This document shows, one piece after another, positions 5,153 to 60,946 of a stretch of 64,000 nt of DNA. The position numbers and the translations under genes are program-made. The stretch spans positions 16,057 through 80,056 of the forward strand of contig CAIOAO010000011.1 in the NCBI GenBank assembly GCA_903855985.1, in the 5' to 3' direction. Numbering within the stretch: position 1 is the stretch's first letter; each line of letters opens with the position of its first letter. The notes under the pieces were generated by a model that saw nothing but the letters and a program-made list of their open reading frames with translations, ran no database searches and was not told the DNA's origin. This DNA comes from an uncultured Opitutia bacterium. GTDB lineage: Bacteria; Verrucomicrobiota; Verrucomicrobiia; Opitutales; Opitutaceae.

Positions 5153-6526
5153 TCAGACCGGCACCGCGCGCGCCGCCAGGGCTTCCCCGGCCGCGACACA
5201 GGCGGGCAGGGCGATGCCATCGCGGGCCTGGCCGCCGATGTACAGGCCCGGATTGGCGCGTTCGCAGGCCGCCATCGCACCGAGGTGGTGCTCATAGCCC
5301 AGATTATACTGGGGAATAGCCCGCGGCCAAAGCGTGTGGCGCGAAAAGACCGGCTCGCCGGTGACCCCGAGCAGTTCGGTGAGGTCGGGGCGGATGCGCG
5401 CGAGCAGCCGGTCGGGCGGGAGCGAGGCGACTTCCGGCTCCCGCGCGCCCCCCACCATGACGGTGAGTGCGACATGGCCTTCCGGGGCACGTCCGGGAAA
5501 CAGTGACGAGGAAAACAGCACGCCGAGGACCGAGCGATGCTCGACCGCCGGCACCAACAGGCCGAAGCCGTCCAGCGGGTGGGCCACCTGTTCCCGGCGG
5601 AAGCCCAGGAAAAGCGAGGCGACGGGCGGATGGTCGATGGTGTCGAGCCCGGCGAGGGGACGCTCGGCGAGCGGGCCAACGCGAAGTGAAGCGAGGGCCG
5701 GGGCGGGCAGAGCGGTGATCACCGCGTCGAAGGTCTCGGTCTGGGCCGCGTGGCCGTCATGCCAGATGACATTCCAGCGGGCGCCGGGCACGAGGCCCTC
5801 GAGCCGGGCGTTGAGCGAGAGCACACCTGCAGGAAGGCGGGCCGCCAGGGCCAGCGGAAGCATCTGCAGGCCCTGGGTGAACGAAATGATCCCCGGCCGG
5901 GGCTCGCCGCGGGCGCGTCGCGCCTTGGCGGTGGCGATCAGGCCGCGCAGGAGCGAGCCGTGGGCCTTCTCGAGTTCCCAGAGCTTGGGAAAGGAGTAGC
6001 GGGCGGATAATTTCTGCGGGTTGCCGGCGTAGATGCCGCTCACAAACGGGTTGAGGGCGTAGTTGACGATCTCCTGGCCGAAGTGGGAGCGGGTGAACTC
6101 CTCGAGGCTGAGGTCCGCGGTCCGCACGCGGCGGCCGGAGACCAGTTCGACGAGCAGCCGGATCTTGGCGGCGGGGGAAAGCAGGGACGAACCCAGGAAG
6201 GATGCCAGCGAGTGCGGGGCGGCGACCGGCCGGCCGCGGCGGACGATATAGCGGTGCTTGGCCGCGGGGCTGGCGGCCACGCAGGCGCCGGTGAGGCCGA
6301 TTTCGGCGAGCAGGGCGGTCAGGGCGGGCTCGCCGGTGACGATCGTGTTGGGTCCGGCCTCGATGAGCCAGCCGCCGGTGTTTTCGCTGCGGATGGCGCC
6401 GCCGACGCGGCTGGATTGCTCGAAGAGGCGGACCCGGTGCCCGCGCTGGGTGAGCCGGTGGGCGGCGGTCAGGCCGGTGATACCGGCGCCGAGGATGGCG
6501 ATCGATTGAGGAGCGGAGGAGCCCAC
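5153..6526 (-). CDS. hemG: Protoporphyrinogen oxidase, HemY-type
   Basis: N-terminal FAD motif ILGAGITGLTAAHRL; GPNTI; C-terminal GLYIGGQARDGIALPACVAAGEALA; next to hemE and hemF. Confidence 0.9.
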   Translation of the reverse strand: MGSSAPQSIAILGAGITGLTAAHRLTQRGHRVRLFEQSSRVGGAIRSENTGGWLIEAGPNTIVTGEPALTALLAEIGLTGACVAASPAAKHRYIVRRGRPVAAPHSLASFLGSSLLSPAAKIRLLVELVSGRRVRTADLSLEEFTRSHFGQEIVNYALNPFVSGIYAGNPQKLSARYSFPKLWELEKAHGSLLRGLIATAKARRARGEPRPGIISFTQGLQMLPLALAARLPAGVLSLNARLEGLVPGARWNVIWHDGHAAQTETFDAVITALPAPALASLRVGPLAERPLAGLDTIDHPPVASLFLGFRREQVAHPLDGFGLLVPAVEHRSVLGVLFSSSLFPGRAPEGHVALTVMVGGAREPEVASLPPDRLLARIRPDLTELLGVTGEPVFSRHTLWPRAIPQYNLGYEHHLGAMAACERANPGLYIGGQARDGIALPACVAAGEALAARAVPV

Positions 6527-6585
6527 GAATTACGCGGATCGATGTGAATTATTCCGATGGGAGAGGTGACAGGCTGAGGCCGGGG

Positions 6586-7617
6586 TTACTTCCACGCGGT
6601 TACGGTGGAGACGAGGGCTTCGAAGCACTCGATCTTGGCCTGCGGGAGGATGCCGTGGCCGAGGTTGAAAATGTGCCCCGAGGTGCCGCGCATCGATTCC
6701 AGCAGCTTGGCGGTCTCGCGCACGACGATGGCGGGCGTGGTGTTGAGGAGGACGGGGTCGAGATTGCCCTGCACGGCGACATTGGCCGGCAACGTGCGGC
6801 GGACAATCGAGAGATCGTTGGTCCAGTCCACGCTGAGCACCCGCACCCCGGTAAAAGCCTGGTCGGTGATGTGCGGGGCCGTGCCCTTGGCGTAGAGGAT
6901 GACAGGGAAATCCTTGGGCAGCGCGGCGACGATCTGGCGGATCCACTTGAGTGAGGCGGCTTCGTAGTCCGGGCCGGCGATGATGCCACCCCAGGAATCG
7001 AAAATCTGGATGGCGTCCGCCCCGGCGCGAATCTGCATCTGAAAATAGGCGATCAGCGCGGCGGTCAGTTTTTCCAGCAGAGCGTCGAAGGTGGCGCGGT
7101 CGGTGTAGAAAAGCAGCTTGATGCGCTCAAACTCATCGGAGCTGCCGCCCTCAACCATGTAGGTCGCGAGCGTCCACGGGGAGCCGCCGAAGCCGAGCAG
7201 CGCCTTTTTCCCGGCGAGTTCCTTTTTCAGGAGGACGAGGGCGTCGGCGACATAGCGGAGCTTCTCGGGGACGGCGGCGGCGGGCGCGAGCGCGTCGATC
7301 TGGGCGCGGGTATCGAGGCGGTAGTCCATCCCGATGCCACCCTCGTCGCGGAAGCGGTAGCCCTGGCCGAGGGCCTCGGGGATGACGAGGATGTCGGAGA
7401 AGAGGATGGCAGCGTCGATACCGGGAAACCGCTGCAGCGGCTGGAGCGTGACCTCGGCGGCGAGCGCGGGCGTGCGGACCATCTCAAGGAAGGAGGATTT
7501 GGCCTTCAACGCGCGGTATTCCGGCAGGTAACGGCCGGCCTGGCGCATGATCCAGAGCGGGGGACGCTCGAGGGGAGTGCAGGCACAGGCGGCGAGGAAA
7601 CGTTCGCGGGAAGTCAT
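6586..7617 (-). CDS. hemE: Uroporphyrinogen decarboxylase (start trimmed to MTSRERF)
   Basis: RPPLWIMRQAGRYLPEYR, AILFSDILVIPEALG, GFGGSPWTLATYMVEGG. Confidence 0.97.
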   Translation of the reverse strand: MTSRERFLAACACTPLERPPLWIMRQAGRYLPEYRALKAKSSFLEMVRTPALAAEVTLQPLQRFPGIDAAILFSDILVIPEALGQGYRFRDEGGIGMDYRLDTRAQIDALAPAAAVPEKLRYVADALVLLKKELAGKKALLGFGGSPWTLATYMVEGGSSDEFERIKLLFYTDRATFDALLEKLTAALIAYFQMQIRAGADAIQIFDSWGGIIAGPDYEAASLKWIRQIVAALPKDFPVILYAKGTAPHITDQAFTGVRVLSVDWTNDLSIVRRTLPANVAVQGNLDPVLLNTTPAIVVRETAKLLESMRGTSGHIFNLGHGILPQAKIECFEALVSTVTAWK

Positions 7618-7687
7618 AAGGAAAGGGCCAGTGAACACGAATTCACGCCAAGGGAGAAGGCCGGAATGGTTTCGCGTCCATTCACGT

Positions 7688-8656
7688 TTATTCGCAGTTA
7701 AAATCCGCCCAGTCCTGTGGCTTGAGAAAGGTGTCGTAGAGTCGGGCCTCGGGACTGCCGGGTTCGGGCTTCCAGTCGTAGTCCCAGCGGACGAGCGGCG
7801 GCAGCGACATGAGGATGGACTCGGTGCGCCCGCCGCTTTGGAGGCCAAAGTGGGTACCGCGGTCCCAGACGAGGTTGAACTCCACGTAACGCCCGCGACG
7901 GTAGAGCTGGAACTGGCGCTCGCGGTCCCTGTAGGCGGTGGCCTTGCGCCGGGCGACGATGGGCTGGTAGGCGGGCAGGTAGGCGTCCCCGACGGCCTGC
8001 ATCAGCGCAAAGCTGCGCGCAAAGCCCAGCTCGTTGAAGTCGTCGAAAAACAACCCGCCGATGCCGCGCGGCTCGCCCCGGTGTTTGAGGAAAAAATACT
8101 CGTCGCAGGTTTTTTTAAACCGCGGGTAGAGCGCGTCACCGAACGGGGCGACGGCGTTGCGGGCGGTGCGGTGCCAGTGGGCGGCGTCGGCCTCGAAGCC
8201 ATAGTAGGGCGTGAGGTCGAAGCCGCCGCCGAACCACCACGTGGGATTTTTGATTTTCGATTCGCGATTTTCGATTGCGGATCCGGCTGCGGCGGGGGCC
8301 GCGCAGAAGAAGCGGACGTTGGCGTGGCTGGTGGGGACGAAGGGATTGCGCGGGTGAATGACGAGGGAGACGCCGAGGGCTTCCCAAGGCCGGCCGGCCA
8401 GCTCGGGCCGGTGGGCGGTGGCGGAGGGCGGGAGCTTCGTGCCAGTAACATGGGAGAACGCTACGCCGGCTTTTTCGAAGACGGCGCCCTCGGTCAGGAT
8501 GCGGGTCCGGCCACCGCCGCCCTCGGGGCGCGTCCAGGCGTCCTCGCGGAATTTGCCCGTGCCATCCTCCTGCTCAAGTGCTGCGCAGATGCGGTCCTGG
8601 AGCGAGAGCAGGTAGGTTTTAACCGCGGCGGGGTCCGGTTTCATGCAACAGGGCAT
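7688..8656 (-). CDS. hemF: Oxygen-dependent coproporphyrinogen III oxidase
   Basis: [63 protein letters not shown]. Confidence 0.96.
8245..8280. repeat. TCGAAAA-type quasi-periodic repeat in-frame inside hemF
   Basis: gatttttgattttcgattcgcgattttcgattgcgg; encodes [11 protein letters not shown]; related to 22933..22972 and 60114..60245. Confidence 0.65.
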
Positions 8657-60245: not shown

Positions 60246-60248
60246 GCC

Positions 60249-60848
60249 ATGACTCCTGCGTTTGAAAAGCTGCAGAAGCACCTGAAGCAGCTGCCCGGCC
60301 TCGGTTACCGTTCCTCGGAGCGCATCGCGCTGAACCTGCTCGTGGAAAAGCCCGAGCGGTTGCCCGCGCTGGTCGCGGCGCTGGAGGAGGCGGCTCGCGC
60401 CGTGCGCCGTTGCTCGCGCTGCGGGAATCTCGCCGAGAGCGAGCTGTGTTCCATTTGCGCCGATGAACGCCGGGATGCGTCCATCGTCTGTGTGGTCGAG
60501 CACGTCCCCGACCTCGTCGCCCTCGAGCGCAGTGCGGCGTATCGCGGGACCTACCACGTGTTGCACGGCAAGCTGTCGCCGATCCACGGGGTGGGGCCGG
60601 CGGATTTGAACTTTGCCCCGCTGCTCGCCCGCGTGGCGGACGGTGGGGTGACGGAGCTCATCCTGGCGCTCTCCAACGATGTCGAGGGCGAGGCGACCTG
60701 CCATTATCTCACCGAGCAACTGGCTGCCACGGGCCGGGCGGTGAAGGTCACGCGGATCGGATTCGGCCTGCCCAGCGGCGGGGGCGTACTGTACGCAGAC
60801 TCGGTCACGCTGAAAAGCGCGCTCGATGGCCGGCGGTCGTATTCGTGA
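60249..60848 (+). CDS. recR: Recombination protein RecR
   Basis: KQLPGLGYRSSERIALNLL; CSRCGNLAESELCSIC; YRGTYHVLHGKLSPIHGVGP. Confidence 0.96.
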   Translation: MTPAFEKLQKHLKQLPGLGYRSSERIALNLLVEKPERLPALVAALEEAARAVRRCSRCGNLAESELCSICADERRDASIVCVVEHVPDLVALERSAAYRGTYHVLHGKLSPIHGVGPADLNFAPLLARVADGGVTELILALSNDVEGEATCHYLTEQLAATGRAVKVTRIGFGLPSGGGVLYADSVTLKSALDGRRSYS

Positions 60849-60870
60849 GCGCGGCGGACGCGCTCACGGG

Positions 60871-60946
60871 TGTTGGGTGTTACGTGTCAGGTTGAAGTCG
60901 GAAATATCGGCGGTCTTTCCTAACACCTAAAACGTAACACAGGACA
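60871..60946. repeat. Two inverted TAACACCTAA-like motifs (tgttgggtgttacgtgtcagg ... cctaacacctaaaacgtaacacaggaca)
   Basis: Shared TGTTACGT core in opposite orientation. Confidence 0.45.

Follow-up and report, generated by a model that had tools for sequence, protein, structure and literature searches.

Short formulaic strings at gene borders of an uncultured Opitutia bacterium: arms of small hairpin elements that probably move as units

Formulaic strings in the window

The window analysed here is a stretch of 64,000 nucleotides from an uncultured Opitutia bacterium (G000:C11:16057-80056; host genome G000, 2.94 Mb, 66% GC, 110 contigs), in which short formulaic strings are found at gene borders and inside genes. 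The entire gap between ybaB and recR (60116..60248) is filled by an element with an inverted pair of TTTTCGA arms, where the left (5') arm (60110..60133, minus strand) overlaps the ybaB stop codon and the right (3') arm (60213..60245, plus strand) ends 3 bp before the recR start codon. A second inverted pair, on the plus strand and belonging to the GTGTTAG family with its GTGTTGG and TAACACC strings, follows recR and is composed of the 5' arm GTGTTGGGTGTTACGTGTC (60869..60893) and the 3' arm CCTAACACCTAAAACGTAACACAGGACACG (60919..60948), the latter having 22 nt in common with an arm that the sister species carries at a site unrelated to this one. Two further TTTTCGA-family arms, both on the minus strand, lie in frame within genes, one reading as 13 residues in a loop of UvrA (22934..22966) and the other as 11 residues in HemF before WWFGGG (8245..8276). 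The ybaB-recR, UvrA and HemF examples confirm the initial annotation in placing such strings between genes, at start or stop codons, or in frame within genes.

A similar TTTTCGA insert is present at the same HemF point in G060 (locus L390), with a different order of units. The hemF arm may thus be an old insert that the two genera have in common, or insertion may have recurred at this point.

The sequence analysed comprised 803 kb of G000, 734 kb of its congener G003, which is a sister species with about 93% DNA identity, and smaller stretches of other genomes. The gene calls come from a home-made caller based on codon usage, and the gene borders are approximate except where proteins were checked.

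Periodic arms in inverted pairs

Exact copies of most of the listed strings number one or two each in the 803 kb, so that counting exact copies is the wrong test and periodicity the right one, and families were tested instead. A self-match scan at lag 7 (threshold at least 16/20) yields 37 segments in the 803 kb of G000 versus 3 in an order-3 Markov control sequence, and 27 of the 37 are non-coding, though non-coding DNA is 9% of the sequence; this is the contrast between intergenic and genic density that had been proposed for checking. The lags 4, 5, 8, 10, 11, 13, and 16 are near background, lag 14 is a harmonic of lag 7, and lags 6, 9, 12, and 15 carry the codon signal. The heptamer units are highly varied and include TTTTCGA, GGGAGCA, GGAAGAA, GAGTGAC, AGCTGAC, TTAGGAN, GGGTGAT, and AGTATCA, among others.

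Genome-wide counting, as proposed in the initial annotation, gives a clear surplus for ATTTTCGATTTTCGA (14 copies in G000, none in the reversed control) and, in the 803 kb, for the full GGCGGGTC palindrome (4 versus 0); the bare GGCGGGTC is not enriched (80 forward versus 147 reversed). Enriched 9- and 10-mers were rejected as a signal in themselves, with AATCGAAAAT being the sole standout and the remainder codon noise. The strings are above chance as a class, most of them are not confirmed as individual motifs, and they repeat solely as members of degenerate families.

Inverted repeats with a score of at least 24 occur in 63 of the 407 intergenic gaps of G000 versus 1 in shuffles, and in 131 of the 803 gaps of G000 and G003 together. 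Most of the formulaic strings turn out to be paired or solitary arms of such short inverted-repeat elements. An arm of about 30 nt is composed of three to four degenerate 7-mers or of three 9-10-mers, the latter kind being represented by ACCRCGAAT.ACRCGAAT, CACGGATTACACGGAT, CGCAAAGGCGCAAAG, and AACGGAGGAAACGAAG. The 5' arm is fixed in each family, as seen for CGCGAA (17:0), CACGAA (7:0), GTCATTC (7:0), AACRGAGG (5:0), TTTTCGA (4:0), TTAGGA (4:0), and AGAAGG (3:0), whereas CGGAT (11:2) and CGGAA (18:4) depart from the rule in a few cases. A GTCATTC element consists of two mini-hairpins, and the loop is 35 nt long in six of seven cases. Within the TTTTCGA arm the units are specific to their register: TTCTCGA or TTCCCGA is found in 9 of 43 third units, in one second unit, and in no first or fourth unit, and the third unit is genome specific, all of which speaks for the copying of a template. 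Where the initial annotation saw several unrelated families with one placement logic, the several families and the shared placement stand, but most of the families have a common architecture of short-period arms of about 30 nt, inverted pairs, and fixed polarity, and are therefore not unrelated oddities.

A dispersed 107-bp unit

In genus g3, the TTTTCGA element resolves into a 107-bp unit in which a 31-nt arm is followed by a 14-nt hairpin, a stretch of about 17 nt, a second hairpin of another type, and the mirror arm. Dozens of sites in G074 and G102 can be aligned to this unit, and the alignments end sharply. The inner hairpins are of type A (GGAGC-TNCC-GCTCC) or type B (CGCGC-TNCC-GCGCG), among others, and their stems covary, being 100% paired with 12 double-sided changes versus 4.3 in shuffles (0/500, a figure not to be taken as a probability, given the relatedness of the 16 sequences). 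Every one of the 22 dimers typed in both halves (22/22 in G013, G074, and G102; loci L300-L365) is heterotypic, combining A with B or C and never like with like; five further dimers could be typed at one half only. Like pairs would make a long perfect palindrome and are presumably lost for this reason.

Of 27 copies of the 107-bp unit, 24 have A and T as their flanking bases. The initial annotation had proposed a search for target duplications, and none are seen in the one testable family, as no flank match of at least 4 bases exceeds chance in 23 g3 units. At one unit site, G074, with flanks 93% identical, lacks the unit and has a gap of 41 bp that contains CTAAACG/CTAAACC heptamers.

Turnover at orthologous gaps

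The ybaB-recR gap was compared across 50 genomes of one bacterial family. Many of the gaps are short (roughly 7 to 50 bp) and have no arm pair, for example the empty 12-bp gap in congener G009, while in others an element, belonging to one of at least 10 families, takes up all the sequence between the stop and start codons. TTTTCGA fills the gap in the window genome, in G003, where a GTAG-tagged repetitive extragenic palindrome (REP) is nested in the loop, and in several other genera, and CACGAAT fills it in congener G008. The vocabularies elsewhere include GGTTCCG, GTTGAAA, GTTGAGA, GTTGGGA, GTTCAGG, TTTGGAT, AATTGGG, ATTTACG, AAGTAAG, and others, and a few gaps hold longer sequence with no recognisable arms. 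The empty orthologous sites that were to be sought in relatives were thus found by aligning orthologous loci. The UvrA loop (22934) switches too, judged by eye, with TTTTCGA in the window, an AGCTGAC-like string in G003, AAATTTG in G013, and GTTCAGG in G016.

Among 124 syntenic gaps of G000 and G003, 25 have an element in either species. The median identity is 0.51 in these 25 gaps versus 0.91 in the 99 others, a contrast that is partly definitional because any gain or loss of an element necessarily spoils the alignment of the gap. At only 7 of the 25 gaps is an element present in both species, and it is mostly of different sequence. One element of G003 is nearly identical to that at locus L166 of the Verrucomicrobia metagenome-assembled genome Opi-474, which probably places the group in or near Opitutaceae.

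A separate case is found at G000:C75:29397-29546, where a CGCGGAT hairpin is apparently inserted within a REP-like palindrome and the sister species has the short palindrome alone.

Distribution within and beyond the phylum

The 30-nt TTTTCGA arm was surveyed in 289 sampled genomes of the phylum, with the reversed arm as control. It is patchily distributed and found in 24 of them, the control being zero in all but one genome. The matches number 71 in G013, 39 in G060, 34 in G204, and 23 in G223, which belongs to another class; the number for G204 is inflated by overlapping matches in tandem runs, and the other sampled congeners of G204 have none. The larger repeats that contain the arm are not the same in G204 as in G223. 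In G204, which is of another family, the arm TTTACGATTTTCGATTTACGATTTACGATT is repeated often beside a GGCGCCTTCGGCGCC hairpin (loci L367, L385-L394), and one place (C37) has a long tandem heptamer run.

Beyond the phylum, the 25-base TGTCATTCTGAGCGNAGCGAAGAATC recurs without mismatch in 119 or more stretches, which represent about 15 phyla, with a chance expectation of about 5e-4, and stem variants such as CCCT/AGGG occur in the paired arms of these stretches. Triple repeats of the ACGCRRA type number 64 in 50 named genomes versus 1 in the reversed control, these genomes not being a random sample because they were selected as carriers of TGTCATTCTGAGCGNAGCGAAGAATC. They are chiefly found in two Chloroflexota, and also in Planctomycetota, Calothrix, and Desulfatirhabdium. 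Period 7 is dominant in the cross-phylum loci as well, where a few of the lag-7 hits are runs of N. The remark in the initial annotation on similar strings in other environmental genomes is borne out by this recurrence.

The cross-phylum GTCATTC element (loci L111-L229) has a GCGNAGC core, in which all four bases are seen at N. One form of this core, GCGAAGC, is known as a DNA mini-hairpin of extraordinary stability.

Further strings in the window

Most of the other strings listed by the initial annotation were also found in place. Two 14-mers of the form AAGGGAC-GAGTGAC (AAGGGACGAGTGAC twice; 14608..14635, plus strand) lie in frame in a PUA-domain S-adenosylmethionine (SAM) methyltransferase, and the sister species is 15 nt shorter at this site. 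A single CRCAAAG-family arm (ACGCAAAGGTGCAAAG at 12987; 12987..13013, plus strand) is located upstream of a prfC-like start codon, and a single GGCAGAA/TTATGAA-family arm that includes GGCAGAATTATGAAGT (17639..17680, plus strand) is directly upstream of the gene at 16356-17633 on the minus strand. Two plus-strand strings, both judged by eye, are weak and decayed: a CACGAAT-family string at 7633..7699, with its 5' part at 7633-7647 and a possible 3' part at 7676-7699, and a CACGAAT/CGCGGAT string at a gene start (6522..6544) with no clear partner.

The palindrome at 53617..53678 is an inverted pair of REPs of a known kind, being composed of GTAGGGCGGGTCTTTGACCCGCC and its mirror ending in CCCTAC, as in the published definition of GTAG-tagged REPs (PMC3733652); the GGCGGGTC palindromes are ordinary GTAG-tagged REPs. 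The item at 700, which had been listed as the same palindrome, is not a copy of it, and two degenerate REP-like palindromes are seen there by eye (646..722; GGGTTGCACGC..GCGTGCAAC and GCGGGTC..GCCTTACC). The Rfam scan of the window gave two tRNAs and nothing else, and the scan of the element loci gave tRNAs and below-threshold hairpin look-alikes (mir-2574, MIR7504), with no structured RNA family at gathering score.

Comparison with known repeats

The small dispersed repeats (SDRs) of Nostoc punctiforme, reportedly treated by Elhai et al. in 2008, are said to be very small mobile repeats of 21 to 27 nt that have a covarying structure, occur nested with arrays of heptamers, and are limited to one subgroup of cyanobacteria. 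The present elements differ from SDRs in being longer and cross-phylum.

GTAG- and CGTC-tagged REPs form hairpin dimers, prefer heterodimers, and are spread over multiple phyla, the CGTC kind being without transposase (PMC3733652). Our elements resemble REPs and the inverted REP doublets called REPINs (PMC3733652, PMC3116915) in being short intergenic hairpins, often inverted dimers, with several families per genome, some genic copies, a preference for heterodimers, and a multi-phylum distribution. They differ in that the heptamer or nonamer arms, such as TTTTCGATTTTNGATTCTCGATTTTCGATT, are untagged and not self-palindromic, that families switch at one orthologous gap, and that TTTTCGA is dissociated from the REP-associated tyrosine transposase (RAYT). 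The GTCATTC elements of related loci, by contrast with these arms, match the CGTC/TGTC super-family, which is defined by a CGTC/TGTC tag, a stem starting with A-T pairs, a short loop, a CCA tail, and no dedicated transposase (PMC3733652); they have a TGTC tag, an AT-first stem, and a CCA-like tail (TGTC-ATTCT..AGAAT-CCA/CT with stem variants) and no transposase.

Heptanucleotide repeats are already known, with TAACTGA described in Beggiatoaceae, Cyanobacteria, and Bacteroidetes (PMC4679880) and GGGAATC and GGGGA(C/T)T in Xanthomonas and Nostoc (PMC4692102). As in those repeats, including the cyanobacterial short tandemly repeated repetitive (STRR) sequences, the units are of 7 bp, intergenic, often beside start codons, and patchy across phyla, with no evident transfer mechanism. 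The known cases are single-family direct arrays, whereas many families coexist here, with fixed registers in arms of about 30 nt and inverted pairs. An STRR or long simple sequence repeat (LSSR) is a head-to-tail 7-mer in variable number; our arms have period 7, but with three to four register-specific units and an inverted partner. Compared with classical miniature inverted-repeat transposable elements (MITEs), the long inverted arms are present and target-site duplications are absent from the 23 g3 units; no autonomous parent was seen, without a full search for one. That relatives can carry alternative short sequences in the same intergenic position recalls the small variable segments or dimorphic loci of PMC2884548, over half of which are unexplained by known elements, whereas the alternatives here are recognisable hairpin families.

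In the open-licence literature we found no description of inverted heptamer-arm elements, the 107-bp heterotypic unit, or same-gap family switching, although an earlier description elsewhere is possible; a full-text search of the same literature found no paper on the strings themselves, and nothing specific was found there on short-patch illegitimate recombination.

Origin of the elements

We favour, as fairly probable, the reading that the strings are intact or decayed arms of many families of non-autonomous hairpin elements of about 70 to 240 bp that are mobile as units. It builds on the anatomy described above, the dispersal of the 107-bp unit in one genus, the filled, empty, and other-family states of the gaps, the patchiness, and the recurrence across phyla. 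Each element would be an inverted pair of arms of about 30 nt around a variable loop, with two small hairpins in the loop in the best-resolved case, and would be copied in as a unit, probably via an intermediate of folded single-stranded DNA, through the action of either an enzyme or a process of the host. Insertion may be broadly permissive and placement a matter of survivorship, with copies lasting between stop and start codons, or in genes only if they are in frame and give a hydrophilic loop; lone arms would be solo or decayed copies. In all 10 of 10 TTTTCGA arrays within called genes, the purine strand is the coding strand and gives IENRKSK-like peptides, and the hydrophobic FRFSIFD that the reverse strand would read is never seen in gene copies. 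Such an orientation bias is the expected residue of selection against harmful insertions, so that no targeting is needed.

Several points weigh against this reading. No mobilising gene was identified: G000 has one transposase gene of the Y1 type, associated with other inverted repeats, and no match to the reverse transcriptase family RVT_1. As no target duplication was seen, the case for insertion comes from the comparison of filled with empty sites and not from a scar, and many gaps could also diverge by deletion. The close tracing is confined to the TTTTCGA family, whose loop is conserved only in genus g3 and varies in length and sequence in G000, and the mobile unit differs between places, as the larger repeats of G204 and G223 illustrate.

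It seems rather unlikely that selection keeps the hairpins for a function as terminators, mRNA stabilisers, or translation-insulating stems. The exact fit between stop and start codons and the covarying stems would suit such a role, as would the distribution over gap types, convergent gaps being richest in elements (31/115, versus 24/222 and 53/285 in co-directional and 23/181 in divergent gaps). However, the divergent gaps hold elements too, copies lie inside uvrA and hemF, the sister species is often without an element at the same gap, and the families switch freely.

A local birth of the arms, where slippage with a step of about 7 nt builds the arrays, template switching makes the inverted partner, and the cross-phylum vocabulary is convergence, is quite improbable. 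Period 7 is dominant in G000 and in unrelated phyla, as it is reported to be for long simple repeats (Mrazek, as far as cited in PMC4679880), the units are degenerate, and long tandem runs such as that of G204 C37 occur. Slippage is, however, not expected to give register-specific units, to make arms from unrelated sites identical over 22 nt, to spread near-identical 107-bp units over dozens of places, or to leave 25 bases exactly the same in about 15 phyla. This origin is largely refuted for TTTTCGA and GTCATTC and is viable only for families without shared non-periodic sequence between sites.

The RAYT-like mobiliser suspected in the initial annotation found no support in the distribution of Y1 genes, which was compared with the TTTTCGA family alone. 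The Y1_Tnp family is absent from G204 (34 matches) and G330 (4 matches) despite their TTTTCGA arms, an absence that is not proof because draft assemblies can miss genes, whereas G017, G086, G096, and G093 have 13, 18, 10, and 9 Y1 genes and zero matches. Arm matches and Y1 genes are dissociated, so that the RAYT link fails for this testable heptamer family. The sole Y1 gene of G000 (locus L110, C100:37396-37725) is flanked by GGGGTCAGCCCCTAAC inverted repeats and not by heptamer arms, and fits the terminal inverted repeat (TIR)-type transposons of PMC3733652. That all the strings are REP- or REPIN-type elements moved by RAYT or other IS200/IS605 (Y1) transposases is very improbable on these grounds and for the lack of a GTAG tag on the heptamer arms, despite the GTAG-tagged GGCGGGTC palindromes, the richness of Opitutus terrae in GTAG REPs (PMC3733652), and the REPIN-like inverted doublet and inner hairpins of the 107-bp unit. 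As a general mover, Y1 is refuted unless draft assemblies have missed the enzyme or it is supplied in trans by a source outside the genome.

A wider and doubtful proposal can be added: the elements may belong to an open cross-phylum pool of short hairpin cassettes that lack a mobilising gene of their own and have a common combinatorial vocabulary, spreading as folded single strands, by external uptake or intracellular release, and entering by illegitimate recombination or lagging-strand template switching. Such a pool would, if real, explain the many low-copy families, the missing target duplications, the replacement of whole gaps, and the GCGNAGC cores of the cross-phylum elements.

The intergenic DNA of many environmental bacteria is usually taken as unannotated filler, and much of it is here a fast-changing population of tiny elements whose anatomy can be recognised and whose alternative families show up in a single conserved gap between genes. 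The system opens to testing both the question of what moves REP-like elements in which a transposase is lacking and that of how identical short strings come to be present in unrelated phyla, with the ybaB-recR gap serving as a natural assay of insertion, loss, and family replacement.

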